A DNA stretch of 43,060 nucleotides from Chelativorans sp. YIM 93263 (GTDB lineage Bacteria > Pseudomonadota > Alphaproteobacteria > Rhizobiales > Rhizobiaceae), in contig NZ_JAKCWP010000014.1 of the NCBI RefSeq assembly GCF_028767125.1, positions 303 to 43,362 of the forward strand, read 5' to 3'. A program made the position numbers and the translations under genes. The notes below the pieces were generated by a model. The model was not told the DNA's origin and did not search any database. It saw nothing but the letters and a program-made list of their open reading frames with translations. Position 1 is the stretch's first letter, and each line of letters starts with the position of its first letter. Positions 1,040 to 38,260 of the stretch are shown here, in pieces.

Positions 1040-2143
1040 TCAGTCTGTGCCCGCATAGGTCGCGCCGGGCCAGACCTTATCCGCTGCCCGCTGGTACTGG
1101 ACCGGCCGCTCAATCTCGGCACCCAGAGCGCGGGAAGCCGACCAACCCCAATGAGGGTTGTCGAGGAAGGCGCGCCCAAGCGCGATCATGTCGGCCCTCC
1201 CCTCGGAGATGATCGCCTCGGCCTGTTTCGGCGTGGAAATGAGGCCGACGGCGCGGGTCGAAAGCCCCGCCTCGCGTTTCACGCGCTCCGCGAAAGGTAC
1301 TTGGTAACCCGGCTCGATCCTGGGGACGGCATTCGGCGTCACACCGCCGCTCGACACGCAAACAAAATCAACGCCCTCCTGCTTCAGCCGATTGGCGAAG
1401 GCCACGGCGTCCTCCAGTTCGATGCCGCCTTCTATCCAGTCGCGTCCGGTGATCCGCAGGCCGAGTGGCCGGCCCTCCGGCCAGACCGCGCGCACCGCAC
1501 GCACCACTTCGAGCGGAAAGCGCATCCGGTTCTCCACGCTGCCGCCATAGCCATCTGTGCGGTGGTTGGAAATTGAAGAGAGGAACTGGTGGAGAAGATA
1601 GCCGTGCGCCGCATGGACCTCCAGCACATCTAATCCGAGGCGCTCGGCCCGGCGCGCGGCTTCCACGTGCGCGACCTTCACGCGTTCCAGATCGGCCTCG
1701 TCCATTTCGCGCGGCACATGCCAGCCTTCACCGAAGGCGAGCGAGGATGGTGCCATTGTTGTCCAGGGGTTCTCATCCGCGCCAAGCGCGCGGCCGCCTT
1801 CCCATGGCTTGTGCGCAGAAGCCTTGCGACCCGCGTGGCCGATCTGGATGCCGAGCCGGGCCGATCCGTGCGCGCGGCAGTGGACCAGAACGCGCGCCAG
1901 CGCCTCCTCATTGGCGTCATTGTAAAGGCCGAGATCGCCATGAGTTATGCGTCCCTCCCTTTCCACGGCGGTCGCCTCGACGACCAGCAACCCCGCGCCG
2001 GATGCGCTCAGCGTTCCCAGATGAGCGAGGTGCCAATCCGTCGCCGAGCCGTCCTCCGCGCTGTACTGGCACATGGGCGAGACGACGATCCGATTGGCCA
2101 GCGTCGACTCTTTCAGTGTGAATGGCGAAAATAGAGCGCTCAA
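1040..2143 (-). CDS. NADH:flavin oxidoreductase, Old Yellow Enzyme family (YqjM-like)
   Basis: A 367-residue FMN-dependent ene-reductase of the YqjM/NamA class, a cytosolic TIM barrel that reduces activated C=C bonds with NAD(P)H. The N-terminus carries SPMCQYS, with the redox-tuning Cys25 and Tyr27 typical of YqjM-type enzymes. Also visible are HAGRK (about 103-107), the substrate-binding pair HAAH (His177, His180), and DGYGGSVENR. The length is normal. The start is TTG, supported by a GGGAG site six bases upstream; no in-frame ATG fits better. It is the last gene of the minus-strand liv/hyu operon, 40 bases after the M20 gene. Its reaction in the pathway is inferred only from position; it may reduce an unsaturated intermediate. 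Confidence 0.9.
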   Translation of the reverse strand: MSALFSPFTLKESTLANRIVVSPMCQYSAEDGSATDWHLAHLGTLSASGAGLLVVEATAVEREGRITHGDLGLYNDANEEALARVLVHCRAHGSARLGIQIGHAGRKASAHKPWEGGRALGADENPWTTMAPSSLAFGEGWHVPREMDEADLERVKVAHVEAARRAERLGLDVLEVHAAHGYLLHQFLSSISNHRTDGYGGSVENRMRFPLEVVRAVRAVWPEGRPLGLRITGRDWIEGGIELEDAVAFANRLKQEGVDFVCVSSGGVTPNAVPRIEPGYQVPFAERVKREAGLSTRAVGLISTPKQAEAIISEGRADMIALGRAFLDNPHWGWSASRALGAEIERPVQYQRAADKVWPGATYAGTD

Positions 2144-2183
2144 TTGAATCTCCCAAGCACGCGGACGAAAGGTTCGGGGAGGA

Positions 2184-3365
2184 TCAGCCGATCGCCAGAT
2201 CCTGGAAATGACGCGACATCAGCATGGCATGCATCAACGCTGCCCGCGGGGCAACCGTGGATAGCAGAATATGCTCGTGAACGGCATGAGCGCCAGCACC
2301 GTTGCAGCCGAGCCCATCGAGCACCGGCCGACCGATGGCGGCTGCGAAATTGCCATCCGAGACACCGCCGCGCGAGGTTTCGTTCATCGGCAGGCCGAGA
2401 TGCTCCGCAAGCGCCCGCGTCGCCTCATAGAGCCTGACGACCTCGGCTGAACGCATGAAAGGCGGCCGGTTCATTCCGCCCTCGACCTCCAGGCGGACAT
2501 CCTCGCCGATCGGTCGGCGCGCCAGCATCCGTGCGACGAGGCGTTCGGCCGTCGCCATGTCTTCGGCGCGTATATCGACCTCGATCCGCGCTAAATCCGG
2601 CACCACATTGGCGCGCGTCCCTCCCATAACGGTGCCAACATTGAAGGTCGCCTTTTCTTCGGTCTCGTTCATCGCCTCGATTTCCATTATGTGGCGGGCG
2701 ATCTCGTGAATGGCGCTTCGCCCGTCGGTCCGGTTACCGCCGGCATGCGAGGAAACGCCATGGGCGATGAGCGAGAAACGTGCCCAGCCCTTGCGCGCGG
2801 TGATGACGGTACCCGGCGCCTCGAAGGCGGGTTCGGGAACGAGGACAAAAGCCGCCCCGGCGGCGAGTTTTTCGATCGTCTCGCGTGAGTTTGGGCTGCC
2901 GATCTCCTCGTCTCCATTGAGATAGACCCGGATCGGGCGCGGCGGCACAAGGCCTTTCTCAACGATCCGCCGCAGGGTTTCCGTCGCCAGGTAAGAGCCG
3001 GCCTTCATGTCGAATATGCCTGGCCCGTGCAGGCGGTCGCCTTCACGCTTCACCGGCCTTTCGGCGAGCGTGCCGGCATCCCAAACCGTGTCAACATGCC
3101 CCATCATCAGTGCCGGCTGCCCCTCGCAGCCCTCGGGCGCGTACTCGATGACGAGCTGGCCGCCACAGCCATCGCGCGAGGGGATGCGGCGTATCTCGAC
3201 CGGCAATCCCGAAAACGACTGCTCGACGTGATCGAGCAGCAGGTCGATCAAATCGGGGCGATCCGATGGCGTCTCCATCTCGACCCAGCGTATGATTCCC
3301 GCGAGGAGAGCCTCGGTGTCGATCTCCTCCGCGCGCGGCAGAGCCCGTTCGAAATTCTCAGACAT
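2184..3365 (-). CDS. M20 family metallopeptidase, glutamate carboxypeptidase (CPG2)-like
   Basis: A 393-residue zinc-dependent amidohydrolase of the M20/ArgE-DapE-CPG2 superfamily. The motifs appear in order: GHVDTVW (metal His and Asp), GPGIFDMKAG (bridging Asp), NGDEEIGS (catalytic and metal Glu), VPEP (metal Glu), the dimerisation-domain SSHAG, and VHEHI near the end (metal His). The ATG at 3365 is chosen because AAGGA lies just upstream and homology begins there; it overlaps the hyuB stop by 8 bases, so translation is probably coupled. CPG2-like members hydrolyse the C-terminal glutamate of folates or N-acyl amino acids. Here it probably cleaves an amide left after ring opening by HyuAB. 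A related enzyme is encoded at 14934-16097. Confidence 0.9.
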   Translation of the reverse strand: MSENFERALPRAEEIDTEALLAGIIRWVEMETPSDRPDLIDLLLDHVEQSFSGLPVEIRRIPSRDGCGGQLVIEYAPEGCEGQPALMMGHVDTVWDAGTLAERPVKREGDRLHGPGIFDMKAGSYLATETLRRIVEKGLVPPRPIRVYLNGDEEIGSPNSRETIEKLAAGAAFVLVPEPAFEAPGTVITARKGWARFSLIAHGVSSHAGGNRTDGRSAIHEIARHIMEIEAMNETEEKATFNVGTVMGGTRANVVPDLARIEVDIRAEDMATAERLVARMLARRPIGEDVRLEVEGGMNRPPFMRSAEVVRLYEATRALAEHLGLPMNETSRGGVSDGNFAAAIGRPVLDGLGCNGAGAHAVHEHILLSTVAPRAALMHAMLMSRHFQDLAIG

Positions 3366-5088
3366 CGATCCTTCCTTGCCCCATCGGGGATATTGCTTCC
3401 GCAGGCGCTGCGTGTTCCGGAACGTCCAGGCGGTAGACGTCGCGCGCCGTTTCGGGCGAGATGAAGCCGTCATCCAGGTCGCGCCGCACCGCTTCCCGGT
3501 CGCGTTCGGCCGGAGGTCCCCAGCCGCCGCCGCCCGGTAGACGGATCTCGACCAGATCTCCGGCCTTTAGCGGAAAAGTGCTCGTCGCGCCGAGTTCGAT
3601 GAGCTCGCCATCCCGCTCGACCGTGAGCCGCGCGCTGACTCCGTCACGGCCGCCCGCGCGTCCGCGCGGAGCAAGCCGGAAGCGGTCGGAATAAAGACTG
3701 AGCGTGACATCGTTCCTGAGGATACGGAAACGCCGGAAGATACCCTGTCCGCCATTGAATTGTCCCTCTCCCCAGGAATCGCGGATCAATCCGAACCCTT
3801 CTATGCGGACATGGGGGTTGAGCTGTTCGATCGCCTCGGACGGTGTCAGCCGGCACGAGGACAGGACGTGATCGGTGGCGTGGATGGCGTCATAGCCACT
3901 TGCCGCGCCCCAGCCGCCGCCGAGCACATCGAGATGGATGGCGATGCCGCCCTCGGGCCTGTTGTGAGCAAGAAAGAAGCCCGTCGTGGAATTGGCGCCC
4001 TCGCCGGGCACACGGCCGGGCAATGCCTCGGCCAGGGCATCGTGAACGGCATCGAGAGCGCGGCAGCAGGCAGTCGCCCGCGCCCGCACGGGCGCGCCGG
4101 GCCTGGGATTGAGCACCGAGCCCTCGGGAAAGATCATGGTCAGCGGCCGGTTGCAGCCATCATTGGCCGGCATCTCGGTGTCGCCGAGAATACTGCGCAA
4201 CGCCGTCACGGCGCCGGCTGTGCTGCTGGCCAGAGGCGAGTTGAACATCGTGCGCACTTGCGGATCGGTACCGGTGAAATCGAGCGTGGCCTCATTACCC
4301 GAAATTGTGACGTTTGCGGCGATCCGGATTGGCCTGCCGGTGGGCTCGCGCCCGTCGCTGTCGAGAAAAGCCTCGCCAGCCCAGCTTCCATCCGGAATCC
4401 TGGCGATCGCGGCGCGCATGCGCCGCTCCGAATAGTCGAGCGTTTCCCGCATGGCTGTACGTAGCGTGTCCGGCCCGTATCTCTCCGCGAGTTCGCGCAC
4501 GCGCCGCGCGCCGACATCATTGGCGGCGAACTGGGCATCCATGTCGCCCATGCCGATCTCCGGCGTGCGGATATTGGCGAAGATCAGGCGTTCAATCATG
4601 CCACCATGCCAGTCGCGGTCGATATCGAGCAGCAAGGGCGGGATGACGATCCCTTCCTGGATTAGTTCATGGGCGGCCGTGTTGACGCCGGCGGAACCGC
4701 CGCCGATGTCGAGATGATGGGCGGTGCTGCCGCTCCAGCCCAGAAGCTCGCCATCGTGGAAGATCGGCGTGAACAGGATGATGTCGTTGAGATGCTGGCC
4801 GCCGCTATAGGGATCGTTCGTGAGCACAAAGCTGCGTGGCCCCACGCCGGCAAGGTCAAGCTGCTCAGCCGCGGCGGCGAAGGAAGCGCTGAGCGCGGCC
4901 GTCTGCATGGGGATCATGTCGGCTTGGGCCACGACGTTGCCTTGCGAATCGAGCAGAGCGGTAGAGCAATCGCGCGCCTCGCGGACGACGGCGGAGAAGG
5001 CGGAGCGGATGAGATTGGCCGCCATTTCGTCAGTGGCTGCCTGAAGCGCGCGCGCCAGGATCACCATCAGCGTGCGATCGGTATTCAC
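3358..5088 (-). CDS. hyuB: Hydantoinase B / oxoprolinase family protein (HyuB)
   Basis: A 576-residue beta subunit of the ATP-dependent hydantoinase/5-oxoprolinase/caprolactamase family. The N-terminal half holds the family block around NDPYSGGQHLNDI and the HHLDIGG segment. The C-terminal half holds the glycine-rich GGGGWGPP near the end. The start is GTG at 5088: it overlaps the hyuA stop as GTGA and has GGAGG five bases upstream. A longer frame reaching 5139 has no such signal. HyuB works with HyuA in the cytosol. In this family HyuA phosphorylates the cyclic amide or lactam and HyuB takes part in hydrolysis. The substrate (hydantoin, 5-oxoproline, a lactam or other) cannot be read from the sequence. 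Confidence 0.93.
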   Translation of the reverse strand: MNTDRTLMVILARALQAATDEMAANLIRSAFSAVVREARDCSTALLDSQGNVVAQADMIPMQTAALSASFAAAAEQLDLAGVGPRSFVLTNDPYSGGQHLNDIILFTPIFHDGELLGWSGSTAHHLDIGGGSAGVNTAAHELIQEGIVIPPLLLDIDRDWHGGMIERLIFANIRTPEIGMGDMDAQFAANDVGARRVRELAERYGPDTLRTAMRETLDYSERRMRAAIARIPDGSWAGEAFLDSDGREPTGRPIRIAANVTISGNEATLDFTGTDPQVRTMFNSPLASSTAGAVTALRSILGDTEMPANDGCNRPLTMIFPEGSVLNPRPGAPVRARATACCRALDAVHDALAEALPGRVPGEGANSTTGFFLAHNRPEGGIAIHLDVLGGGWGAASGYDAIHATDHVLSSCRLTPSEAIEQLNPHVRIEGFGLIRDSWGEGQFNGGQGIFRRFRILRNDVTLSLYSDRFRLAPRGRAGGRDGVSARLTVERDGELIELGATSTFPLKAGDLVEIRLPGGGGWGPPAERDREAVRRDLDDGFISPETARDVYRLDVPEHAAPAEAISPMGQGRIDV

Positions 5089-7115
5089 GAAAACCTCCGC
5101 AAGATGAGGTCGCCGGTCGTCAGGCATTCCGCTTCCCATTCTGGCGGCACAACGGTCGTCGAGGTGGGTTCCGAAAGGATCGCGGGGCCGGAAACCTTGC
5201 CGCCGACGGCGAGATCATTGCGGGCGAGCGCCTTTGCTACGAGATCGGCGCCGGCGATCGAAATGGGGACTTCCTCCGGCACATTGCCCTTGCCCGCGGG
5301 CAGCGGCGTGGAAATCCGGGCGTCGGAGCTTGCCGTCAGGCGGATACGATAGGACACGACCTCGACATCCAGCCGGGCACGAGCATATCCGTAACTTGCG
5401 CGATGCTCGTCCTCGAAGAGCCGGCGCAGTTCTTCCTTCGCTCTCGCGCGCCCTTCCGTCCAGACCGTCAGCTCGAATGCCTGCCCCACATAGCGCATGT
5501 CGAGACCGATCTCGATCCCGTAGCCCCCCTCCTCGAGGCCATAGGTCCTGGCGAGTTCGTGGCAGCGCGCACGCAGATCGTTGCAGCGCGCGGCGTCCAG
5601 GCTCGTGTCGTTCAACCCGTGAAGATCGCTCTGGGCGGCGTCGATCAAGGTATCAGCGATCAGCAGGCCGAAGGCGCTCGCCAGACCGGGCGACCACGGT
5701 ACGAGCACCCGCGTGATGCCGAGCTCGCCGGCGACCATGGCCGCGTGCAGCGGCCCGCCACCCCCATAGGCGACGAGCGTGAAATCGCGTGGATCGATGC
5801 CGCGCCCGGTCGAGACAAGCCGGACGGCCGCCGCCATGTTGCTGTTGACGAGTCGAAGCACGGCGTCCGCCGCGCGGGTCGCATCGCCCCCGCTGTCGAG
5901 CGGCGCGAGCGCGGCTTTCGCTGCGCTGCCGGAAAGCTCCATCCTGCCGCCAAAGAATTGTTGCGGCCGCAGCAGGCCGGCGATCACTTGCGCATCGGTG
6001 ACGGTCGGCCGCGTGCCGCCGCGCCCGTAGCAGACCGGGCCAGGCACGGCTCCGGCGCTTTCCGGCCCCACGGCCAGGAATCCGCCCGGGTCGATGGTGG
6101 CGATACTACCGCCGCCAGCGCCTATCGTGGCCATGTCGACCGAGGCGGTACGCACGGGCAGGCCGTCGATCTTGAGCTCCGGGACCATGCTGGGAACGAG
6201 GCCCTGCGCAATCGCGACATCCGTGCTCGTTCCGCCCATATCGAGCGTGATGACGTCCTTGATCCCGTTGCGTTCGGCGAACCACATCGCCGCGCGCACG
6301 CCGGCCGCCGGTCCTGACAGAAGCATGCGAACGGCATTGGCGCCCGCCGCGTCCGCCGGCATGGCGCCGCCATTGGATTGCATGATTTTAAGGAGGCCGT
6401 TGTAAGCATCATCACGCAGACCGGCATCGAGGAGGTGGACATAGGATTCCACGACAGGCCCGACAAAAGCGTTCACCACCGTCGTGACGCTTCGCTCGTA
6501 TTCACGAAATTCCGGCGACACTTCATGGCTCGCCGAGACCGCGACATGCGGCGCGCGTTGACGGATCATGTCCGCCAGCGCTCTCTCATGCACGGGATTG
6601 CGATAGGCGTGGATCAGGCTGATGGCGATGCCTTCCACACCTTGCGAGAGGAAGGCCTCGACCTCGCGCCAGGCAGCTTCAAGGTCGAGAGGAACGATGA
6701 TCTCGCCATCGGGACCGATGCGCTCGGGAACTTCGCGGATCATGCCGCGCCGGATCGGCGGTGCCGGGCGGCGATATTGCATGTCGTAGACGCCGTGATC
6801 GCGGTCACCCCGCCCGACAATGACCACATCGCGGAAACCGTCGGTGGTCAGAAGCCCGGCCGATGCGCCTTTGCGCATGATCAGCGCATTCGTGGCGACT
6901 GTGGAACCATGGGTGATCCCGGCGACGTCGCCGAGCGGCATGCCGGCCTCGGAGATCACCGTCAGCACTGCTTCGTGGAGGGCGTCCGGCGTGGAAGGCG
7001 TCTTGCCCGTATGCAGCCGGCCGTCGGGGCCGGACCAGACAAGGTCGGTGAAAGTGCCGCCAATCTCGACGCCGATACGGTTCGCGCCGCTGCCTCCGCC
7101 GCCGAAATGCTTCAT
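5085..7115 (-). CDS. hyuA: Hydantoinase A / oxoprolinase family protein (HyuA)
   Basis: A 676-residue alpha subunit of the ATP-dependent cyclic-amide hydrolases. The N-terminal nucleotide-binding element GVEIGGTFTDL (about 15-25) and the second phosphate loop LDMGGTSTDVA match the ASKHA-fold ATPase of N-methylhydantoinase, 5-oxoprolinase and acetone carboxylase relatives. YGGGGPLHA is also present. The start at 7115 has only a weak Shine-Dalgarno sequence and begins with a glycine-rich leader, so a slightly shorter protein is possible. It follows livG by 52 bases and overlaps hyuB by four. Linkage to an amino acid/amide importer suggests that the imported compound is its substrate, opened at the cost of ATP. 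Confidence 0.93.
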   Translation of the reverse strand: MKHFGGGGSGANRIGVEIGGTFTDLVWSGPDGRLHTGKTPSTPDALHEAVLTVISEAGMPLGDVAGITHGSTVATNALIMRKGASAGLLTTDGFRDVVIVGRGDRDHGVYDMQYRRPAPPIRRGMIREVPERIGPDGEIIVPLDLEAAWREVEAFLSQGVEGIAISLIHAYRNPVHERALADMIRQRAPHVAVSASHEVSPEFREYERSVTTVVNAFVGPVVESYVHLLDAGLRDDAYNGLLKIMQSNGGAMPADAAGANAVRMLLSGPAAGVRAAMWFAERNGIKDVITLDMGGTSTDVAIAQGLVPSMVPELKIDGLPVRTASVDMATIGAGGGSIATIDPGGFLAVGPESAGAVPGPVCYGRGGTRPTVTDAQVIAGLLRPQQFFGGRMELSGSAAKAALAPLDSGGDATRAADAVLRLVNSNMAAAVRLVSTGRGIDPRDFTLVAYGGGGPLHAAMVAGELGITRVLVPWSPGLASAFGLLIADTLIDAAQSDLHGLNDTSLDAARCNDLRARCHELARTYGLEEGGYGIEIGLDMRYVGQAFELTVWTEGRARAKEELRRLFEDEHRASYGYARARLDVEVVSYRIRLTASSDARISTPLPAGKGNVPEEVPISIAGADLVAKALARNDLAVGGKVSGPAILSEPTSTTVVPPEWEAECLTTGDLILRRFS

Positions 7116-7167
7116 GACGCCTGATCCATGATGTTCGCTATCAGTGTATGCGTGCCCAGACCGTCGT

Positions 7168-7905
7168 TCAGCTGGCCTGCTCCTCGAGCGGTTCGCCGAG
7201 ATAGGCCGAGATCACCTTGGGGTCGGCCACGATCTCCTGGGGCGTTCCCTCGGCGATCTTCTGGCCGGCGTCGATCACGAGGATACGGTCGCATACGCTG
7301 GTGACCGCTTTCATGTCGTGCTCGACCAGCCACACCGTCGTGCCCCGCTCACGCACCTTGCGAAGACAGTTGACCATTTCCTCCGTCTCGATGGGGTTGA
7401 GGCCGGCGCAAGGTTCGTCGGCGAGAAGAAGCGAGGGCCGGGTGGCATAGGCGCGCGCGATCTCCAGCTTGCGAAGCGAGCCGACGGTCAACCCCTCTGC
7501 GGTGCGGTCGGCGAGCTCCTCCAGACCGGCAATGGCAAGCGCCTCGTTCACCACGTTTTTGGGCTGGCTTCCGCCCGGCCTGCCGAACATCGCGCCCACG
7601 CGCACATTTTCCCGTACCGTTAGGGCGGGGAAGGGTTTCGATATCTGGAAGGCCCGGGCGATACCTGCCTGGTTGCGTCGATAGGTAGGCAAGCCGGAAG
7701 TATCCTCGCCCTTGAACCGGATTTCGCCTCCGGTGAGCGGGTAATAGCCGGTGATGAGATTGAACAGGGTCGACTTGCCGGCGCCATTTGGGCCAATCAG
7801 CCCGAAGATGGCACCGGCCGGTATCTCGAAATCGACGTTCTCGATGGCGGTCAGCCCGCGAAAAGACTTCGTGACTCCGCGCCCCGACAGAATGACCTCT
7901 GTCAT
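7168..7905 (-). CDS. livG: Branched-chain amino acid-type ABC transporter ATP-binding protein (LivG)
   Basis: A 245-residue ABC ATPase. Walker A is GPNGAGKST (38-46). The signature region is the degenerate [12 protein letters not shown] seen in LivG-type proteins, followed by Walker B LLLADEP and the H-loop [10 protein letters not shown]. The C-terminal extension reading [19 protein letters not shown] is typical of LivG. It pairs with LivF (13101-13859) as the cytoplasmic motor of a HAAT-family importer. Its start overlaps the livM stop as ATGA. HAAT importers also carry amides and urea-like solutes as well as Leu/Ile/Val, so the name describes the family and not the cargo. Confidence 0.93.
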
Positions 7906-8882
7906 GCCCTTGCCTCCGCCTCGACCGGTTCAACCTGGTTTGCCTGGCGTTTCCGGGAGCGCAGGGCGCCGATGATGCCGCCAGGCATCAGAAGGATAAT
8001 CGCGACCACCATGGCGCCCGTGATGAGAAGGTGGATGTCGAGGAAGCGCGACAGCAGCACCTGTGTGATGAAGAGCATGACTGCGGTTCCGATGATCGGC
8101 CCAAACAGGGTGCCTATCCCACCAATCAGACAGAAGACGATCAGGTTCAGGGAGAAGTCCAGACGGAAGACGGTATAGGTCGTGAAATAGCCGACGCTGT
8201 AGCCGTAGACCGAGCCCATGATGCCGACGAGAGTGGCGGAAAGCACAAAGGCCATGATCTTGTAGCGCTCGGTCGCCACGCCCAGCATCATAGCGGTATC
8301 CTCGTCTTCACGGATCGACAGCAACGCGTAGCCGAAGCGGGAATTGCGCACCGCGATGGAGATCAGGAAGCACAGCAGGAGCAACCCGCCGAAGATGTAA
8401 TAGAAGAAATCTTCCGGGGTCGTGCCGCTGGGAACCGGTGTCTGCAAGAAGACCCCGATGCCACCCTGGAACCAGCTTACATTGTTCACCAGCTCGCCGA
8501 CGACCTGGCTCACGCCCAGCATGGCTATCGCGAAATAGATGCCCCGCAGGCGAAGAATCGGATAGGCGAGGATGGCGGCGAACAATCCGCAAATGAGGCC
8601 GGCGAGGAGGATCGGGACGATCATCGACAACGGCCCGTCGCCTAATGGGCCGAGCCTGTGCACGATATGAGCGGCGCTGAAGGCGCCCATTCCAATGAAG
8701 ACCGTGTGGCCGAAACTCCAATAGCCGGAAAAGCCACCGAGAATGTTCCACGCGATCGCCATGCCGGCGGAGAAGAAGAAGAGCTGGGCCACGCGCGTAT
8801 AGAAAGGTCCGATCCAGAGCGGCAGCAATGCCGCGGCAATGACTATGATCGCGCCGAGGACGAGAGCAAGCGTGCGGTTCAT
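7902..8882 (-). CDS. livM: Branched-chain amino acid-type ABC transporter permease (LivM)
   Basis: A 326-residue inner-membrane permease of the LivM type with repeated long hydrophobic segments, starting with [20 protein letters not shown]. The family motif around [16 protein letters not shown] is present, as is the cytoplasmic coupling region with [13 protein letters not shown]. The ATG at 8882 is preceded by GGAGA at a proper distance and overlaps the livH stop as ATGA. A longer in-frame extension to 9095 reads as arginine-rich antisense of livH and is not used. It forms the membrane channel with LivH. Confidence 0.93.
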
Positions 8883-9757
8883 CGGCTTTCTCCAAACGCG
8901 TTGCCGAGCAGCCCGCTGGGCCGCACCAGAAGCATCAGGACCAACACCAGGAACATGGCTGCCTGGGTGAGCGAGGGACCGATATATTGCGCCGTGAACG
9001 CATTGATCATCCCAAGAAGCAGCCCACCCACGAGCGCCCCGGCCGGACTGCCGATGCCGCCGAGCACGACGACGATGAAGGCATTGAGTGTCCATGCGAC
9101 CTCACTTGCCGCCGTGAAAGGCTGGACGATGCCGATGATGGCACCGGAAGCGCCGGCCATTGCCGCGCCAAGGCCGAAGGTGAGCCCATGTAGATTTCGC
9201 ACATTGAGCCCGGAAAGTTCGGCCGCCAGCGGCTGCTGGGCGGTCGCGCGGATCGCCCGTCCGAAATGCGTGCGAGCGAGAACCAGGGCGAGGACCACCA
9301 GCAGAACCAGGCTCGCCCCTAAGGCGACGAGCCGCACAACGTCCATACGAAGCGGACCAAGGGTCAGGCTCATGAAGCTGTATGCCGGCGTGATAGTATG
9401 CACATCCGGCCCGAATACGAGTTGCAATCCGTTGCGGGCCATCATTGCAACGCCGAAAGTGACGACCAGCGAGGCGACGAGCGAAGCACGCGAAACGGCC
9501 CATTGGATGATGGTGCGCTGATACACATAGCCGACGGCAAACAGGACCAGCCCGATCGGGATGATGGCCACAAGCGGGTCGATGCCAATCTGTCCAAAAA
9601 AGAGAAGGGCGCCATACGCTCCGGCGACCACGAAGATGCCGTGTGTCAGATTGACGATCCCGAGCACGCCAAAGACGAGCGAGAAGCCAACGGCAGCGAG
9701 CGAGTAAATACCTCCCAAAACGAGGCCGTTCAGCACTGTTTGGAGAAAGAGCGTCAT
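8879..9757 (-). CDS. livH: Branched-chain amino acid-type ABC transporter permease (LivH)
   Basis: A 292-residue LivH-type permease. The N-terminus TVLNGLVLGGIYSLAAVGFS and the following GVLGIVNLTHG are diagnostic of the family. About eight hydrophobic segments follow, and VVLGGIGSPAGALVGG is the conserved coupling-loop region. The ATG overlaps the stop of the upstream NodB-fold gene by four bases (ATGA). It works with LivM, LivG, LivF and the periplasmic binding protein at 11848-13071. Confidence 0.93.
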   Translation of the reverse strand: MTLFLQTVLNGLVLGGIYSLAAVGFSLVFGVLGIVNLTHGIFVVAGAYGALLFFGQIGIDPLVAIIPIGLVLFAVGYVYQRTIIQWAVSRASLVASLVVTFGVAMMARNGLQLVFGPDVHTITPAYSFMSLTLGPLRMDVVRLVALGASLVLLVVLALVLARTHFGRAIRATAQQPLAAELSGLNVRNLHGLTFGLGAAMAGASGAIIGIVQPFTAASEVAWTLNAFIVVVLGGIGSPAGALVGGLLLGMINAFTAQYIGPSLTQAAMFLVLVLMLLVRPSGLLGNAFGESR

Positions 9758-10602
9758 TGTGGTGAACCACCTCTACCGTTTTCGTTGGCGGCCCAGGCCG
9801 TGGCGACCTCTTCACCGGTTGCGAACCATACATTCGGGTAGCGGCGCATGAAGGCTATGAATTCACGCAGCATGGCAAGCCGGGAAGGTCTGCCGATGAT
9901 CTGCGGATGGGTGACTATGTTGACGAGCCCGCCCCAGCGATAAATCTCCATGAATTCCTGCTTCCAGATATTCAGGATGTGATCGTTGGTGTGGATCGGA
10001 CGCGGCGACTGGATGGCGAAGAGCGCGTAGGGCGCGTCGTCGACGCTCCAATGCCAAGGCAGTTCCACCGGCCCGCGCGATCCATCGGATAATTGATGCC
10101 GATAGGGGCTAACCTGATCCATAAGCGAGCTGTCATAGGCGAAGCCGTATTCGTGCAGTAGGGCGATCATGTTCTGCGATGTCTCGCCGGCAGGCGAACG
10201 ATATCCCTTCGGCTTGACCCCAACGGTGTCCTCCAGCGCTTCAAGCCCTTTTTCGAGCGCCTCGCGCTCCTTGTCGGGATGGTCGGGGTCGACCCATTCA
10301 TGCAGATAACCGTGATGGCCGATCTCATGCCCGGCGGCTGCGATCGCCTCGATCCGGTCGGTATATTTTTCGGCGGTCCAGCCCGGTACGAAGAAGGTGC
10401 CTTTCAACTCCTCTTCCCGCAGCAATTCGAGTATCTTCGGCACGCCGGTCTTGGCGCCGTAGATGCCCTGCGAGAGCACGCCGGGACGCCGCGCATTGTC
10501 GGGATTGCGCGACAGCCACAGCGTCTCGGCGTCGAAGTCGAAAGTCAGCATCACGGCGCAGCGCGCACCGCCCGGCCATTCGATCGGAGTCATGTCATCC
10601 AC
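9754..10602 (-). CDS. Polysaccharide deacetylase (NodB-fold) family protein, PgdA/PuuE-like
   Basis: A 282-residue carbohydrate esterase 4-fold protein without a signal peptide, so probably cytosolic. It shows TFDFDAET (metal and catalytic Asp), GHEIGHHGYLHE (metal-binding His pair), YRSPAGE, and the late THPQIIGRPSR motif seen in the HpPgdA- and PuuE-like cytosolic branch. Known members deacetylate peptidoglycan or, as in PuuE, open the allantoin ring. Position between a C45 hydrolase and the permeases, next to HyuAB, favours a small-molecule amide or ureide hydrolase over a cell-wall enzyme. GAGGAG lies 12 bases before the first ATG; a second ATG three codons in is an alternative start. Confidence 0.88.
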   Translation of the reverse strand: MDDMTPIEWPGGARCAVMLTFDFDAETLWLSRNPDNARRPGVLSQGIYGAKTGVPKILELLREEELKGTFFVPGWTAEKYTDRIEAIAAAGHEIGHHGYLHEWVDPDHPDKEREALEKGLEALEDTVGVKPKGYRSPAGETSQNMIALLHEYGFAYDSSLMDQVSPYRHQLSDGSRGPVELPWHWSVDDAPYALFAIQSPRPIHTNDHILNIWKQEFMEIYRWGGLVNIVTHPQIIGRPSRLAMLREFIAFMRRYPNVWFATGEEVATAWAANENGRGGSPQ

Positions 10603-10614
10603 GGGAGTTTCTCC

Positions 10615-11760
10615 TCAGGCAGCATCGGAACGGGTCTCTTCCGCATAAAGCGGGAAAGCTTGGAAGGGCGCCTCACAGGGCGGTCCGTCAGTGGCGTAGA
10701 GGACGCGCTCATCGAGATCGAGCAGAATGGCGGCCACCGTGATCACGCGTTTTTCCGGCGGCAAGGCCAGGTCGGGATGACGGCAGATCGCGGCCGGCGC
10801 AGAGAAATGATCGCAGATCACCTCTTCGATCTCCGCACGATCGATTGAACCGAGATGCCGCCTTAAAAGGCGCGCGGCACGCGGGCCGCGATAGAGCGTA
10901 TTGGGCGCGATGCGCTCCATCTGTGAGGTGGTGCGTGTTTCCTTCACCAGATGGTTGGCATGAACCACTAGCCCGTCGGCCGGCGTCAGATAGGCGCAAT
11001 GTTCCGGTGTTGCCTCGATATCGAGGATCTCGCCCTCCCCGTGGCCGACGAGATAATTGCTCGATGCGGTGCGGTCGGTCTGTACGACTGGCAGGAGTGC
11101 CTGGTCGAACCTCCAGGCATCGAGAATTTCCTTACAACGGACATGGAAGGGCTTACGCATGCCGGTGGTACCGTCGCGCGGCGTCACCAGTCCGTTGACG
11201 CAAAGTCCGATCCCGGCGGCGTTCACCCCCATTTTCGAGCCGACTATACCTGCCTCGCTGAAGCCGATGAAATCGGGCTTGTCTTCCTCGCGAGAGGTCC
11301 CGCGCCTGACACGCTGGACGAATGTGCGTCCCTGGACATTCGCGAGCCAGTCCCAGTTCTGGCACAGGATCGTGTGGCCGTTAGCGGTCGCCTCCGGCAA
11401 CAATCCGAAGGATGTGCAGCCTTCCTGCTCGAGCTTTGTTTCGGCGGCTCGGACCTCCTTGCCGAATGCAAGATAGGTGATCTCGTAGCGGGCGTTCAGC
11501 ATGGCGATTTCGGTGAGCGAGACGCCAGACGCTTCCGCGATGGCGGCCATCTCCTCGGCATATTCGCCATTATCGTTCCGGATGAAATCGAGCCAACCCT
11601 CGCTCTGCTTCAGGATCGTCGGGCGGTCGGCGCCGGCAGCCTCGAAACGCGCGAGATAAGTCTCTACATTGTCCCTGATCGCATCGGCCAATGTCGAGCC
11701 GTGGATACGGCCCCGCTCGCGCGGATCCGGGCCGAGTTCCAAGAGCGGAAGAGCTGCCAT
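10615..11760 (-). CDS. C45 family autoproteolytic hydrolase/acyltransferase (isopenicillin N acyltransferase-like)
   Basis: A 381-residue N-terminal-nucleophile hydrolase of peptidase family C45. The likely self-cleavage site is Gly114-Cys115 in EQEGCTSFG, which would expose Cys115 as the N-terminal nucleophile. This is equivalent to Gly102-Cys103 of fungal isopenicillin N acyltransferase. Family segments such as CQNWDW, GIGLCVNGL and SSNYLVGH follow. Bacterial homologues hydrolyse or transfer acyl groups on amide-linked amino acids. There is no signal peptide. It lies 12 bases upstream of the NodB-fold gene and after the binding-protein gene, separated from the latter by a hairpin. The start codon has only a weak Shine-Dalgarno sequence. 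Confidence 0.88.
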   Translation of the reverse strand: MAALPLLELGPDPRERGRIHGSTLADAIRDNVETYLARFEAAGADRPTILKQSEGWLDFIRNDNGEYAEEMAAIAEASGVSLTEIAMLNARYEITYLAFGKEVRAAETKLEQEGCTSFGLLPEATANGHTILCQNWDWLANVQGRTFVQRVRRGTSREEDKPDFIGFSEAGIVGSKMGVNAAGIGLCVNGLVTPRDGTTGMRKPFHVRCKEILDAWRFDQALLPVVQTDRTASSNYLVGHGEGEILDIEATPEHCAYLTPADGLVVHANHLVKETRTTSQMERIAPNTLYRGPRAARLLRRHLGSIDRAEIEEVICDHFSAPAAICRHPDLALPPEKRVITVAAILLDLDERVLYATDGPPCEAPFQAFPLYAEETRSDAA

Positions 11761-11798
11761 GCTGGGTTCGTGTACCTTTCAGCTAGAATTGGGAGGCG

Positions 11799-11825
11799 TG
11801 GCACCCGGCGATGCGCCGGATGCCA
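11799..11825 (-). terminator. Hairpin between binding-protein gene and C45 gene (partial terminator or RNA-stability element)
   Basis: An inverted repeat with a 12-bp stem (arms 11799-11810 and 11814-11825, one imperfect pair) and a three-base loop lies in the 87-base gap after the binding-protein gene. There is no U-tract, and the genes on both sides point the same way. It is therefore more likely to protect the binding-protein mRNA or to attenuate transcription than to end it. Confidence 0.6.
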
Positions 11826-11847
11826 CAGCTATGTTCAACACACCCGA

Positions 11848-13071
11848 TCAGGCGCGTTCTTCCCATGTCGGGGCCGGATAGATCGGTTCGGCAGAGGCCC
11901 CGTCGAGTGGCGCGATGACCTCCATCTCGCCTTCCTGGCGCTGGATCAGCAAGGGTCCCAGCAGGGACGCATCGCCGTCGCCGTCCTCGGTGAAACGTAC
12001 ATGCCCATAGAAACACTCAAAGTCGATCGCCGATAGCGCGTCGCGCACGGCGTCGACATCGAGCGAGCCGGCTCGCCTGGCGGCCTCAATATAGGCGACG
12101 ATGCACACCGCGCCGCTGGCCATGTGATAGGTTAGTTCGCGGTCGAAATTGGCCCGGAAATACTCCGCGAAATCTGCGGCCGAGCCGAAGTAGTCGCCCG
12201 AGAATGGTGCGCGCTCCGACCAGTAGGCCTGCGTGACGATGCCATTCGCATAATTGCCCAGCGCATCGCGGAAAGCGGAGGTCTGCGGGCCGAGCGTCTG
12301 ATAGAGCATAGGCACGTTGGTGTCGGACGACACCATCTGGCGTGCGATCAGGATCGAGGTCTGGTCATGCGTGGTACAGACCAGCACATCGGGTGTGTTT
12401 TCGCGAACCGAGGTCAGCACATTGGATACATCGCTGACTTCGGCCGGCAACCCGATGTAGTCCAGCACCTCGATACCCGCCTCCTCCAGGTTGGCACGGG
12501 CTCCCTCGGCCTGGAACTTCGAGAAAGCGTCATTGGTATAGATGATGCTTACGGTCTTCACCACCGGATCGAGACCGGTAAACATGTTTACCGAGGAAAC
12601 GAACTGGCGCGAGGCGCGCGGGAATATGCCGAAGACGCGCTTACGACCCTGGGTGAAGATCAGATCGGAACCACCGCCCGCCTGCACCATGATGCGGCCA
12701 GCCGCCTCGGTGATTGCGCAGGTGGGAAGCACAATGTTGGAGCCGAAGGAGCCGAGAAAGAAATTGATGCCCTCGTCCACCTGGCGCTGGATCAGAGTCG
12801 TGGCGCGCGCCGGGTCGGATGCATCGTCGAAGAGGTTGAGGGCGAGTTGGTAATTCTGGCCGCCGATTTCGACTCCGCCCATCTCCTCATTGATGAAGTT
12901 GACGGCGCATTGATAGCCTTGAAGCACGTTCTGGCCGGTCTCAGCCGCCGCGCCCGTCATCGGGACCGAACCGCCGAAGGTAATCGTATTGTCCTGGCCG
13001 AAAGCGAGCTTAGGCACAGCGCCAACGATCATCGCTGCCGTCGTTCCCTGCAGGAAAGTACGTCTTCTCAT
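11848..13071 (-). CDS. ABC transporter substrate-binding protein, LivK/branched-chain type
   Basis: A 407-residue periplasmic binding protein of the Leu/Ile/Val-binding (peripla_BP_6) family. The N-terminus MRRRTFLQG followed by a hydrophobic stretch to AFG (about 25) resembles a twin-arginine signal. The mature part starts with TITFGGSVPMTGAAAETG, the usual first strand and substrate loop of the fold, and later has VVKTVSIIYTNDAFS. GGGAG lies seven bases before the ATG. It is encoded between LivF and the C45 hydrolase and supplies the importer's specificity. Its relatives include amide- and urea-binding proteins, so the ligand need not be a branched-chain amino acid. Confidence 0.92.
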   Translation of the reverse strand: MRRRTFLQGTTAAMIVGAVPKLAFGQDNTITFGGSVPMTGAAAETGQNVLQGYQCAVNFINEEMGGVEIGGQNYQLALNLFDDASDPARATTLIQRQVDEGINFFLGSFGSNIVLPTCAITEAAGRIMVQAGGGSDLIFTQGRKRVFGIFPRASRQFVSSVNMFTGLDPVVKTVSIIYTNDAFSKFQAEGARANLEEAGIEVLDYIGLPAEVSDVSNVLTSVRENTPDVLVCTTHDQTSILIARQMVSSDTNVPMLYQTLGPQTSAFRDALGNYANGIVTQAYWSERAPFSGDYFGSAADFAEYFRANFDRELTYHMASGAVCIVAYIEAARRAGSLDVDAVRDALSAIDFECFYGHVRFTEDGDGDASLLGPLLIQRQEGEMEVIAPLDGASAEPIYPAPTWEERA

Positions 13072-13100
13072 CTGTTGTCTCCCATTGCGATTTCAGGCCA

Positions 13101-13859
13101 TCAGGCTAGCCCGAGATAGGCCTCCTTGACATTAGGATTCTTGAGCAGCGCCTGGCCCTCGCCCTTCTGAACAACCCTTCCCTTCTCCAGCACATAGGCG
13201 TAGTCCGCGATGGCCAACGTGTGATGGACGTTCTGCTCAACCAGGAGGACGCTAATGCCCTCCTCATTGAGCTTGCGGACAAGAGAAAATACCTGCGAGA
13301 CGAGAATGGGGCTGAGGCCAAGCGATGGCTCGTCCAGCACCAGGATGCGCGGCATGGTCATCAGACCGCGACCGATCGCCAGCATCTGCTGCTCACCTCC
13401 CGACAACGAGCCAGCATTCTGGCCCTGACGCTCCTTGAGCCTGGGAAACAGATCGAAAACGCGCTCCAGATTCTGTTGGCAGCGTTCGCGGGCGCGACGC
13501 ACGTGGCCGCTGAGGACCAGATTCTCACACACTGTGAGATGCTGAAAAACCAGTCGCCCTTCCGGCACCAGCGCGATGCCTAGTTCGACGGTCTGATAAG
13601 CCGGTATGTTTGTGATATCCTGCCCGTCGAGAATAATCCTGCCGGAACGGGGCCTGAGCGCGCCCGCGATCATCTTGACGCTCGTCGTCTTGCCTGCGCC
13701 ATTCCCGCCAATCAGCGCCGTGATTTTGCCGCGAGGGAGCTCCAGCGAGCAATCCGAGACGGCGCTTACGCCGGAATAATCGTAAGCCAGCCCCGAAACC
13801 TGAAGCAGCGTTTCGCCGGTCGGGCCGGCCTGTGACTGTTCGCTGAGTGCAGCGCCCAT
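13101..13859 (-). CDS. livF: Branched-chain amino acid-type ABC transporter ATP-binding protein (LivF)
   Basis: A LivF-type ABC ATPase of 252 residues. Visible motifs are Walker A GGNGAGKTT, signature LSGGEQQMLAIGRGL, Walker B ILVLDEPSLGLSP, and the H-loop VLLVEQNVHHTL with the usual LivF ending KEAYLGL. The ATG at 13859 is chosen because GGGGGAG stands ten bases upstream; in-frame ATGs at 13868, 13880 and 13886 are possible but poorly placed relative to that site. It is the first gene after the promoter at 13912-13941 and heads the transporter/hydrolase operon. Confidence 0.92.
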   Translation of the reverse strand: MGAALSEQSQAGPTGETLLQVSGLAYDYSGVSAVSDCSLELPRGKITALIGGNGAGKTTSVKMIAGALRPRSGRIILDGQDITNIPAYQTVELGIALVPEGRLVFQHLTVCENLVLSGHVRRARERCQQNLERVFDLFPRLKERQGQNAGSLSGGEQQMLAIGRGLMTMPRILVLDEPSLGLSPILVSQVFSLVRKLNEEGISVLLVEQNVHHTLAIADYAYVLEKGRVVQKGEGQALLKNPNVKEAYLGLA

Positions 13860-13911
13860 CAATTCCATGCTCCCCCACATTGACATCGCTGTGCGATACG
13901 ATTGTTGTGCC

Positions 13912-13941
13912 AGTTTAGATTTCCTTCTCCCGTAATGTCAA
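13912..13941 (-). promoter_or_regulatory. Candidate sigma-70 promoter of the liv/hyu operon
   Basis: On the minus strand a perfect TTGACA (-35, at 13936-13941) is followed after 18 bases by TAAACT (-10, at 13912-13917). The predicted transcript would start around 13905 and reach the livF start about 45 bases later. The position, between iclR and livF, fits a promoter separate from that of iclR. Confidence 0.55.
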
Positions 13942-13989
13942 CCAATGCTGAAAATGCCACCCAGCACAGCGGGAGCGACACCTCATCTC

Positions 13990-14802
13990 TCAAACAGGGC
14001 GCAAACCGGCGGCCGCAGCGGTGACGAGCGGCCCCGCCCGCGAAACAAACTCGTCGGGCTTCCATTCGGCAAGCGAAGCCGCGATATGAACGGCGCCGAC
14101 CGGCTGGCCCGCGCCGTCGAGCACTGCAGCGGCAACGGCAATCTCACCCACAAGAACCTGCTCGATGGCAAGCGAATAGCCGGTCTCCCGCACCTCCTCG
14201 ATGCGGGCGAGTATCTCGTCGATCTCCACCGTGGTACGCGGCGTGATCTTGCGCCGGTCGGAGCGGTGAAGGATATCGAGCACCGCTTCACGGTCGAGAT
14301 GACTGAGCACGGCGCGACCGCCCGATGTGCAGAATGTTGGAACGCGGCGCCCGATTAGATGGGCATATAATGTGTCCCGCTTGCTCTGCATACGCACCAC
14401 GTAAATCATTGAAAGATCATCGAAAAGGCTTAGATCGACACGTTCCTTGATGGACCGGCGCAGGTTGGCGAGGATTGGGACGGCTCGATTGACGAGCGGG
14501 CTGGAGCGCAGATAGTCGAAGGAACGTTCGAGAACGCGCCTGCTGGGCGCAACGCCCCCAGACGTCTTCTCCAGATAGCCGATAATCAGCAATGTGTGGA
14601 CGAGGCGCTGGACCGCGCTCTTGTCCAGCGCGGTTACCGCGGCGATTTCAGAAATCGACATCGGAGCAGGATTGTCGGCGAATGCCTCTAGCACGCGGAA
14701 GCCACGCGCAAGCGCTTCCACGAATAACCGGTCGTTCTTCGGTTCCCGCATTTCCGTTGGTGCCGCCGCGGCGTTCAGGGCACCAGTATCGCTTGCCGTC
14801 AC
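13990..14802 (-). CDS. IclR family transcriptional regulator
   Basis: A 270-residue regulator with an N-terminal winged helix-turn-helix (ISEIAAVTALDKSAVQRLVH, about 49-68) and a C-terminal effector-binding IclR domain with GRRVPTFCTSGGRAVLS and ETGYSLAIEQVLVGEIAVAA. The start is GTG at 14802, with AGGAGG five bases upstream. It is divergent from the M20 gene at 14934 and upstream of the liv/hyu operon, and is the obvious candidate to control both according to the imported substrate. A palindrome at 14851-14866 next to the M20 promoter is a possible operator. Confidence 0.92.
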   Translation of the reverse strand: MTASDTGALNAAAAPTEMREPKNDRLFVEALARGFRVLEAFADNPAPMSISEIAAVTALDKSAVQRLVHTLLIIGYLEKTSGGVAPSRRVLERSFDYLRSSPLVNRAVPILANLRRSIKERVDLSLFDDLSMIYVVRMQSKRDTLYAHLIGRRVPTFCTSGGRAVLSHLDREAVLDILHRSDRRKITPRTTVEIDEILARIEEVRETGYSLAIEQVLVGEIAVAAAVLDGAGQPVGAVHIAASLAEWKPDEFVSRAGPLVTAAAAGLRPV

Positions 14803-14850
14803 ACTTTCCTCCTAACCCGATTGTCTGGACCTGCCTTGCTTGCGTGCACC

Positions 14851-14866
14851 ACCGGACCGGTTCGGT
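14851..14866. promoter_or_regulatory. Palindromic candidate operator in the iclR/M20 intergenic region
   Basis: A 16-base palindrome centred on ACCGGT, matching its reverse complement at 14 of 16 positions, abuts the -35 box of the predicted plus-strand promoter. IclR proteins bind short palindromes in divergent intergenic regions, so this is a plausible operator. Assignment is by position only. Confidence 0.4.
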
Positions 14867-14895
14867 TGACGACCGTGAAAATCCCGTCCTATGAT
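14866..14895 (+). promoter_or_regulatory. Candidate sigma-70 promoter for the M20 gene
   Basis: TTGACG (14866-14871), an 18-base spacer and TATGAT (14890-14895) match the consensus closely. Transcription would begin near 14902, giving a leader of about 30 bases before the ATG at 14934. Confidence 0.55.
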
Positions 14896-14933
14896 GATAG
14901 CAATGTAACCGAATTGCATAGCGATACACAAGC

Positions 14934-16097
14934 ATGACAAAGCAGATTGCCGCGGAAATCGACGTGACGCAGCTTGCCTTTGATGCCAGCAGCATGGCGA
15001 CAGGATTGCGCGAATGGGTCGAGACCGAGAGCCCGACCTATGATCGTGCGGCAGTCAACCGCATGATGGATGTCGCATCGCGCCATCTAGCCATCCTCGG
15101 CGCCGAGATCCAGCGCATTCCCGGCACACTCGGCTATGGCGATTGCGTTAAGGCCAGCTTCGCGCATCCGCGCCGCGACAAACCCGGCATCCTCATTCTC
15201 GGACATCTGGACACGGTGCACCCGCTTGGCACGCTCGATCACTTCGGATGGCGCGATGAAGACGGGCTCTGCTACGGTCCCGGCACGCTCGACATGAAAT
15301 CCGGCAATTATCTTTCGCTCGAAGCGATTGGCCAGTTACGCAAGGCAGGCTTCGAAACGAAGCTGCCTGTCACCGTGCTTTTCACGAGCGACGAGGAAGT
15401 TGGAAGCCCGAGCACGCGGGCGCTCGTCGAGGCCGAGGCCGCGCGCCATCGTTACGTGCTGGTGCCTGAGCCTGCCCGCAGGAACGGTGGCGTGGTCACC
15501 GGACGTTACGCGATCGCCCGTTTCGAACTGGAAACGCGCGGCCTTCCGAGCCATGCCGGGCTGCGCCTGGGCGAAGGAGTCTCGGCAATCCGTGAAATGG
15601 CGCACCAGATCATCGCCATCGAAGCGATGACCGATGCCGATGCGGGCTATAGCGTGGGGGTGGTCAATGGGGGGCAATGGTCGAATTGTGTATCGACCAT
15701 ATGCCGGGCAAAGGCGTTGGTTTCTGCCACGTCAGACGAGAAGCTTGCCGAGGCGGACGAGCGCATGAGCAACCTGAAACCGGTTGGCGCCGATGTACAG
15801 GTCGACGTGAAACGCGACGTGGTCCGCCCGGTCTGGACGACGAGCGACGCATCATGGTCTCTCTACGAACATGCGGCGCGGCTCGCGCGTGGATTGGGCT
15901 TCGAGATTCCGCCACAGAATTCCGGTGGCGGCTCGGACGGGAACTTTACTGGGGCAATGGGAATCCCCACGCTCGACGGCCTTGGCGCCCGCGGCGACGG
16001 CCCTCACACCTTGGACGAGCATATCGTGACGGAAAGCCTCGCGGAACGCGGCCGGCTCATCGCTGCCCTTCTCGTCACGCTGGACGGCGTCGTCTGA
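14934..16097 (+). CDS. M20 family metallopeptidase, glutamate carboxypeptidase-like (second copy)
   Basis: A 387-residue M20 amidohydrolase with all metal and catalytic residues: GHLDTV (His91, Asp93), GPGTLDMKSG (Asp120), SDEEVGS (Glu154, Glu155), VPEP (Glu179), the dimerisation-lid LPSHAG, and DEHI (His363). It is clearly related to the enzyme at 2184-3365 (shared GGxSDGNF and LDGLG blocks) but is not a recent copy. It is transcribed alone, divergently from iclR, with a good promoter but no obvious Shine-Dalgarno sequence. It probably belongs to the same regulon as the liv/hyu operon and removes an amino acid from an N-acyl or peptide intermediate. The DNA after its stop is degraded. Confidence 0.92.
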   Translation: MTKQIAAEIDVTQLAFDASSMATGLREWVETESPTYDRAAVNRMMDVASRHLAILGAEIQRIPGTLGYGDCVKASFAHPRRDKPGILILGHLDTVHPLGTLDHFGWRDEDGLCYGPGTLDMKSGNYLSLEAIGQLRKAGFETKLPVTVLFTSDEEVGSPSTRALVEAEAARHRYVLVPEPARRNGGVVTGRYAIARFELETRGLPSHAGLRLGEGVSAIREMAHQIIAIEAMTDADAGYSVGVVNGGQWSNCVSTICRAKALVSATSDEKLAEADERMSNLKPVGADVQVDVKRDVVRPVWTTSDASWSLYEHAARLARGLGFEIPPQNSGGGSDGNFTGAMGIPTLDGLGARGDGPHTLDEHIVTESLAERGRLIAALLVTLDGVV

Positions 16098-21126: not shown

Positions 21127-21130
21127 TGAA

Positions 21131-24973: not shown

Positions 24974-24984
24974 GGAATATCCTT

Positions 24985-25015
24985 CACGCAGCAGCGTCGG
25001 AAACGCTGCTGTGTG
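24985..25015 (-). terminator. Hairpin between binding-protein gene and dppD-like gene
   Basis: Arms 24985-24996 and 25004-25015 pair over 12 positions, including one G-U, around a seven-base loop. No T-tract follows. As the genes on both sides are co-directional, it probably causes partial termination or stabilises the upstream binding-protein message. Confidence 0.55.
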
Positions 25016-25034
25016 GGGTTGGGTTGAACGTGCG

Positions 25035-33666: not shown

Positions 33667-33744
33667 GAAGGCGCCCCCGTTCTCGTTGCGCCCATTGTGC
33701 TCATGCAAAAAAATTCCGCCAATGCCGAGTTACTCACGGTCATG

Positions 33745-34794: not shown

Positions 34795-34802
34795 GTCTGG
34801 AC

Positions 34803-35702: not shown

Positions 35703-35711
35703 TTGCGGATC

Positions 35712-36632: not shown

Positions 36633-36649
36633 GGGTTTTCATCCGGTGC

Positions 36650-36673: not shown

Positions 36674-36684
36674 TGGTCAATCGG

Positions 36685-38217: not shown

Positions 38218-38260
38218 GTCTTATCCTCCCAGGATTGCTGCAGTCATTGCATTTTTCGCA

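Follow-up and report, generated by a model that had tools for sequence, protein, structure and literature searches.

The window analysed here, a stretch of 43,060 nucleotides from Chelativorans sp. YIM 93263 (contig NZ_JAKCWP010000014.1, positions 303 to 43,362 of the forward strand), carries a 13-gene block that probably imports and dismantles a small amide-containing acid. The likely substrate is a small carboxylate whose amide groups are N-acyl or cyclic. The putative control of the block as one IclR regulon is well supported by a conserved DNA site before each of its two transcription units, and a constant core made up of a Liv-type importer, a NodB-fold hydrolase and two M20 hydrolases is supported by conservation. 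We judge the chance somewhat better than even that the whole is an inducible regulon whose products take up and dismantle a small carboxylate bearing N-acyl groups, cyclic amide groups or both.

Gene content of the block

Twelve of the genes occupy positions 14802 to 1040 of the minus strand, and the thirteenth runs divergently on the plus strand (14934-16097). Minus-strand neighbours are separated by at most about 120 bp, and several overlap. Names assigned from Pfam and NCBIfam agree approximately with those in a preliminary description of this DNA, and the importer, HyuAB, the C45 amidase, the NodB-fold enzyme, the two M20 enzymes, the ene-reductase and the IclR regulator that it had gathered into one block were all found where it had placed them. 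Three start positions were shifted using ortholog lengths and local sequence (M20a, 3365; LivM, about 8882; LivF-type ATPase, 13868). The genes are:

1040..2143, minus strand: ene-reductase of the OYE family (PF00724)
2184..3365, minus strand: M20a metallo-hydrolase, CPG2-like; orthologs begin at an internal Met (393 amino acids)
3358..5139, minus strand: HyuB (PF02538)
5085..7115, minus strand: HyuA (PF01968, PF05378)
7168..7905, minus strand: LivG-type ATPase (PF00005 and PF12399)
about 7902..8882, minus strand: LivM permease (PF02653), start inferred from ortholog length
8879..9757, minus strand: LivH permease (PF02653)
9754..10602, minus strand: cytosolic NodB-fold hydrolase with a conserved metal site (PF01522)
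10615..11760, minus strand: C45 autoproteolytic amidase of the AAT family, predicted (NF040521)
11848..13071, minus strand: LivK-type solute-binding protein (PF13458)
13101..13868, minus strand: LivF-type ATPase, starting at the ATG after GGGGGAG, downstream of the operator
13990..14802, minus strand: IclR-family regulator
14934..16097, plus strand: M20b metallo-hydrolase (NF005678)

These family assignments bear out the earlier remark that the block holds four different C-N hydrolase folds.

A shared putative operator before both transcription units

The palindrome GTATYGCnnnGCRATAY lies upstream of both transcription units, each of which also has a promoter-like site:

13885..13899, minus strand: putative IclR operator GTATCGCacaGCGAT, before the main operon
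13912..13941, minus strand: sigma-70-like promoter TTGACA-18-TAAACT, main operon
14866..14895, plus strand: sigma-70-like promoter TTGACG-18-TATGAT, divergent M20b gene
14913..14927, minus strand: putative IclR operator GTATCGCtatGCAAT, before M20b

The layout is alike at both units, with the best promoter-like sites ending 13 and 18 bases before the two operators, an arrangement compatible with repression close to where transcription starts. Each of these two sites matches at 10 of 12 positions; 17 kb contains 8 such sites, where 3.9 are expected. When the gap between the IclR and M20b genes was aligned across nine loci, the block GTATCGCnnnGCAAT was found to adjoin M20b, and the same motif stands in the gap between the IclR and LivF genes; at both places it has at most one mismatch in all nine loci. 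The stretch of G011, a genome of the same genus, holds one more exact copy elsewhere, along with two one-mismatch copies.

Wider searches were made with several forms of the motif. The exact 17-mer GTATCGCNNNGCRATAC, from which each of the window's two sites differs by one base, was sought in 11 genomes (G011, G091, G128 and the genomes of loci L029-L035 and L084) and occurs in seven of them at eight places, seven of which are this operon. The eighth belongs to a second cluster in G128, a genome whose operon is reduced and has no adjoining IclR gene; this cluster comprises an IclR gene product 65% identical to the window's, NodB, an amidase, two short-chain dehydrogenases/reductases (SDRs), a luciferase-like monooxygenase with a flavin mononucleotide (FMN) reductase, and a Liv importer. 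In 117 stretches (2.39 Mb), 17 sites match the 17-mer GTATYGCNNNGCRATAY or its half-relaxed mirror, and an IclR gene starts no more than 300 bp from eight of them; the reversed control yields zero in the same stretches. Upstream (up to 260 bp) of 57 IclR genes (at least 40% identity), a copy with at most one mismatch precedes 26 and a copy with at most two precedes 47; mononucleotide-shuffled segments gave means of 0.0 and 0.15, respectively, over 20 rounds. Among 73 other NodB loci, the 13-base core occurs at 6 intergenic sites in 142 kb and at 7 coding sites in 1,256 kb, and for five of the six intergenic sites an IclR, liv or SDR gene starts 42-109 bp away. The genome of the window has seven 15-mer sites: two in the window, one on C25, one on C2 (inside a long predicted frame), two on C12 and one on C21. 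The claim that the genes form one regulon is thus upheld by the shared conserved site and the similar promoter layout, although the sites are putative operators to which IclR would be expected to bind.

A constant core with accessory enzymes

All 13 genes are present in G011 at 90-97% identity. When named genomes were scanned with a NodB alignment, 496 relatives turned up, and the analysis used the 80 best loci. Of the latter, seven (L029-L035: Mesorhizobium xinjiangense, Nitratireductor arenosus and alexandrii, a Phyllobacteriaceae metagenome-assembled genome, Pseudaminobacter arsenicus, Pseudohoeflea sp. and Rhodobacteraceae HLUCCA12) show the same gene order at 68-94% identity, three without HyuAB and two without the ene-reductase. 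The complete set in G011 and the same-order block in these seven genomes indicate that the grouping is more than chance. The block is also rare and patchy in distribution, as judged from the few close matches in two genome searches. A C45 query against 61 genomes (its own included) returned, besides itself, one close match (G011, 93%) and four more at 32-34%, and a LivK query against 397 genomes of the order returned 11 matches at E <= 1e-60, of which four are close (its own, two at 77% and one at 51%). The 51% match (G330) has no NodB, M20 or HyuAB nearby; none was seen in the stretches fetched for the seven matches at 33-34%, which were not counted as orthologs.

Eleven close loci (the window, G011, L029-L035, L120 and L121) were compared gene by gene. 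The five importer genes, NodB, M20a and M20b are each present in all 11, IclR and C45 are each present in 10, and HyuAB and the ene-reductase are each present in 7; the absence of the ene-reductase from L121 is less sure, as that stretch stops 0.4 kb past M20a. The L120 stretch is reduced to the importer, NodB and the two M20s. From these counts the importer, NodB and both M20 hydrolases form the core, and HyuAB and the ene-reductase look like accessories. In a tree built from a concatenation of eight proteins, the loci that lack HyuAB (L030 with L031, L034, and L120) fall in three places and the outgroups L084 and L091 carry HyuAB, so that three separate losses would be the simplest account. 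No HyuA match above 40% was found elsewhere in the genomes of these four loci. The preliminary description had all the enzymes acting stepwise on one compound, a proposal weakened by close loci that lack HyuAB (4 of 11), the ene-reductase (4 of 11) or C45 (1 of 11).

Related clusters

Parts of the block recur in other company. The trio HyuA-HyuB-M20a (64-72%) accompanies an Opp importer, a racemase and a thiamine pyrophosphate enzyme on the plasmids Agrobacterium pAt2 and Aminobacter p1, and a succinate-semialdehyde dehydrogenase is a few genes away. Separate conservation of the genes elsewhere had been named beforehand as a finding that would undo the proposal of a common pathway, and HyuAB-M20 without the rest on these two plasmids is partly such a case. 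Across the 80 NodB loci (63-91% identity), an IclR gene of at least 45% is present in 44 and SDRs in 59, and a P450 with ferredoxin reductase, TauD or luciferase-like oxygenases accompany NodB at others; neighbour families were assigned by Pfam on one or a few members each and otherwise named by clustering. On contig C25 of the window's own genome (L150, L152), an IclR paralog (49%) with a perfect palindromic operator is joined by M81, an Opp importer, an M20 aminoacylase relative and an M20b relative (58%); as predicted from sequence, this cluster is a sister regulon. Same-operator IclR relatives beside such an M81-Opp-M20-M20b cluster are also present on two plasmids.

The dispersal of HyuAB-M20a, the varied partners of NodB and the M81-Opp clusters argue for a loose amide-scavenging kit, in which the substrates would differ from one hydrolase to the next (peptide fragments, N-acyl amino acids, lactams) and a single IclR inducer, as a signal of organic nitrogen, would be the sole reason for the grouping. 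We regard this as possible but rather unlikely, because no close locus separates the importer, NodB and both M20s, and NodB is located inside the liv genes in L063, L070 and L107. Such cohesion suggests one substrate shared by the core.

Further combinations were observed. On a haloarchaeal plasmid of Natronococcus AD-5 (L024, 12226-36415), C45 (45%) adjoins NodB (31%) and two HyuAB pairs lie within 15 kb, one of them adjoining an AMP-binding enzyme. In Sulfitobacter indolifex, IclR, an Opp importer, NodB, two SDRs and an ene-reductase adjoin a penicillin acylase, and an operator copy precedes both the importer and the acylase. Locus L149 (8025-15621) combines NodB, a luciferase-like monooxygenase, an FMN reductase, an amidase, SDRs and a DUF2848 protein, with the same operator type between the NodB and FMN reductase genes. 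Three genes of the C25 cluster match a Nitratireductor thuwali plasmid cluster at 77-85%.

The hydrolases

The NodB protein matches PF01522 and has the Asp, Asp, His, His and His of an HP0310-type metal site; H101 is invariant in all 22 aligned sequences and is missing in 3cl6. Its earlier designation as a cytosolic NodB/PuuE-fold hydrolase stands for the NodB fold and the location, and fails for PuuE. As a PuuE allantoinase it scores 93.6 bits on TIGR03212 (cut-off 424.6), and it keeps the metal triad that PuuE is without. Imidases (cyclic-imide hydrolases) exist as enzymes, and such a role here is a guess; a literature search found no paper linking imidase to the NodB fold.

C45 scores 214.9 bits on NF040521 (cut-off 85), and its nucleophile, Cys115, is invariant in all eight aligned sequences. 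It is accordingly placed in the autoproteolytic amidase family, and self-cleavage and activity are predicted. No C45 match was found in the L120 genome or anywhere in the genomes of three more distant loci (L084, L087 and L091; LivK 64-73%), and in the latter three a penicillin-amidase family gene adjoins NodB (PF01804 was confirmed by Pfam on the L084 and L048 members, the others being assigned by clustering). This replacement suggests that C45 may fill an acylase slot that a penicillin-acylase relative takes in the three distant loci. The penicillin-amidase family is usually periplasmic. Most of the penicillin acylases of the NodB loci have no signal peptide by eye, although the L091 start is unreliable; those without a visible one are in L084, L087, L048, L051, L056, L060 and L102. 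In other organisms, antibiotic-like amides are substrates of C45 and penicillin-acylase relatives, and the block might by analogy detoxify a foreign amide (an antibiotic or signal molecule) instead of using it as food. We consider this very improbable, since a dedicated importer and IclR control would better suit nutrient use.

CPG2 is the best solved relative of both M20 enzymes. On the NCBIfam glutamate carboxypeptidase model (cut-off 349) they score only 206.5 (M20a) and 184.9 bits (M20b), so that the description of two CPG2-like M20 enzymes holds for the closest structure and not for that model. M20b passes NF005678 (PRK07473 M20 hydrolase; 561.4 bits, cut-off 386), which M20a fails at 303.6.

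HyuA and HyuB match PF01968, PF05378 and PF02538 over cut-off, and HyuB has the metal motif, as in ATP-dependent hydantoinases and oxoprolinases. An M20 gene is present in all eight NodB loci with a HyuA of at least 45%, and HyuAB lies near a gene of the Asp/Glu/hydantoin racemase family in L087, Agrobacterium and Aminobacter. Both observations would fit a hydantoin or ureide pathway like HyuA-HyuB-HyuC, in which ring opening gives an N-carbamoyl acid that an M20 carbamoylase then cleaves. This seems quite improbable to us, given that the M20s score far higher on CPG2-type models than on the hydantoinase/carbamoylase model TIGR01879, which gives 42 bits for M20a and is not among the best 25 models listed for M20b. 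In addition, the window operon has no racemase, the one in the window being 17 kb off in another cluster.

As caprolactamase CapAB, the pair scores 464.1 (CapA) and 239.6 bits (CapB) on NCBIfam models with a cut-off of 1000 each and is not an equivalog; caprolactam degradation was set aside on the same scores. For an N-methylpyrrolidone pathway, another candidate, the literature search gave only a paper on caprolactam. A housekeeping 5-oxoprolinase was also rejected: a long fused HyuA-type frame, which we take to be of the 5-oxoprolinase type, is already present elsewhere in all 11 genomes tested, and HyuAB is therefore probably not there merely for opening pyroglutamate. HyuA-like matches number 2 to 15 per genome in 11 genomes; six genomes (G011, G091, G128, G433, G434 and G436) have 10 to 15 each, compared with 3 in the window's genome.

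The importer and its ligand

The importer has the composition of a HAAT (Liv-type) system: a Peripla_BP_6 protein, two BPD_transp_2 permeases and two ATPases. Plain Leu/Ile/Val transport is a poor fit by model score, LivK reaching 71.2 bits on the branched-chain amino acid model PRK15404 (cut-off 477). By sequence, VIA-align and Foldseek, its best solved relative is SAR11_0655 with L-pyroglutamate. Taken with the CPG2 likeness of both M20s and with the best solved relatives of HyuA (an N-methylhydantoinase and 6yra, labelled 5-oxoprolinase), this would fit a pathway for pyroglutamyl compounds or N-acyl-pyroglutamate, in which LivK imports a 5-oxoproline derivative, HyuAB converts it to an N-substituted glutamate and a CPG2-like M20 frees the glutamate. 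We think this pathway unlikely. LivK shares only 20% identity with this nearest solved relative (8wch), and other folds are near in Z (41.2, 38.8). LivK is retained in the four close loci without HyuAB, and the tested genomes have the fused HyuA-type frame throughout and PxpA in 5 of 11. The pyroglutamyl-type ligand suggested in the preliminary description thus keeps a weak hint from LivK and loses ground to the fused frames.

Proposed function

The proposed regulon, which would handle a small carboxylate bearing N-acyl groups, cyclic amides or both, might work as follows. IclR would repress the main operon and M20b until an inducer binds, and LivFGHMK would import the compound. The C45 N-terminal nucleophile (Ntn) amidase would strip an acyl group; NodB, as a member of the small-molecule HP0310/PuuE group, would open or cleave an amide or imide; and the M20 enzymes would cut the amide next to the freed carboxylate to give an amino acid. 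Where a strain meets a stable lactam or hydantoin, HyuAB would spend ATP to open it, and the ene-reductase would saturate an activated C=C bond.

Several points weigh against this reading. HyuAB and the ene-reductase are often missing, which weakens any reading that needs every enzyme and makes the order of steps a guess. At LivK position 237, the ammonium place in LIV-binding proteins, the window has Gln and some orthologs have Glu or Ala, so that an ordinary amino acid may also be the ligand. The other finding named beforehand against the proposal, a binding protein restricted to Leu/Ile/Val, is neither borne out nor dismissed by these residues. C45 (10 of 80 loci) and penicillin acylase (9 of 80) never occur together, but with an expected overlap of about 1.1 this is not significant. 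Nor does the operator 13-mer reach significance when only the window is considered, with two copies against an expected 0.64 and at least two in 16 of 100 shuffles, and 10 of the 57 IclR genes have no site at up to two mismatches. Finally, the loci are related and were collected by similarity, and motif counts from such non-independent loci are not probabilities.

We offer a broader proposal more tentatively, at somewhat less than even confidence. One IclR subfamily and one 17-bp operator may govern a family of modular amide-breakdown regulons in Alphaproteobacteria, and perhaps beyond, each made up of an importer, which may be Liv, Opp or another type, and of interchangeable amide hydrolases (C45, cytosolic penicillin acylase, amidase-signature, NodB, M20, M81, HyuAB); the window would then be a cyclic-amide carboxylate branch outside known pathways. 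If so, the operator would allow regulon genes to be listed in any genome, and would help to assign functions to metal-keeping NodB small-molecule hydrolases, cytosolic C45/penicillin-acylase relatives and many HyuA-like genes. Given the core (LivK, NodB and two M20s), the substrate question would come down to a single binding assay plus a handful of assays of the hydrolases.

Neighbouring genes

Beyond M20b lies a tyrosine integrase (16960-18201), with no match within 40 kb around the G011 copy of the block. A Dpp/Opp-type importer (two permeases, two ATPases and a binding protein) with two xylose-isomerase-like (AP_endonuc_2) proteins occupies 19235-26603. Another amide/peptide cluster (32005-42077) contains an Asparaginase_2 piece, an Asp/Glu/hydantoin racemase, an S58 peptidase, an Opp importer, LysR and an M55 D-aminopeptidase. 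A DDE_Tnp_IS240-type transposase (42247-43056) is close to the right end of the contig.

Comparison with known systems

No published account of this gene set was found in the open-licence literature, in agreement with the earlier statement that no known pathway matches it in full. HyuAB belongs to the same two-subunit family as CapAB of Pseudomonas jessenii and the HyuAB-type lactamases and hydantoinases, and HyuB has the D-H-D-H metal motif with matching H-D (3) and H-H (25) spacing. CapAB is not known to work with a NodB, C45 or M20 enzyme.

HP0310 (HpPgdA) and PuuE, of the small-molecule NodB1.2 group, are among the five closest solved folds of NodB, the first of which is 3rxz. The window protein keeps the HP0310 metal site and has no visible secretion signal; it differs from PuuE in having H101, the second metal His that PuuE is without. 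PuuE is reported to be non-metal-dependent, and HP0310 to be inactive on all compounds tested in the study that described it. The M20 enzymes differ from carboxypeptidase G2 in that the CPG2 Lys (residue 208) is not conserved, and M20b resembles PRK07473, whose model NF005678 it passes.

Other close counterparts are the IclR/M81/Opp/M20-aminoacylase/M20b clusters of Nitratireductor thuwali, Sulfitobacter SK025, Paracoccus AK26 and contig C25. They share with the window an M20b relative (55-58%), an IclR relative and, in three of the four stretches, the same operator, the Paracoccus AK26 stretch having no full site. In place of the window's Liv, NodB, C45 and HyuAB they carry an Opp importer, joined by M81 in three of these four stretches.

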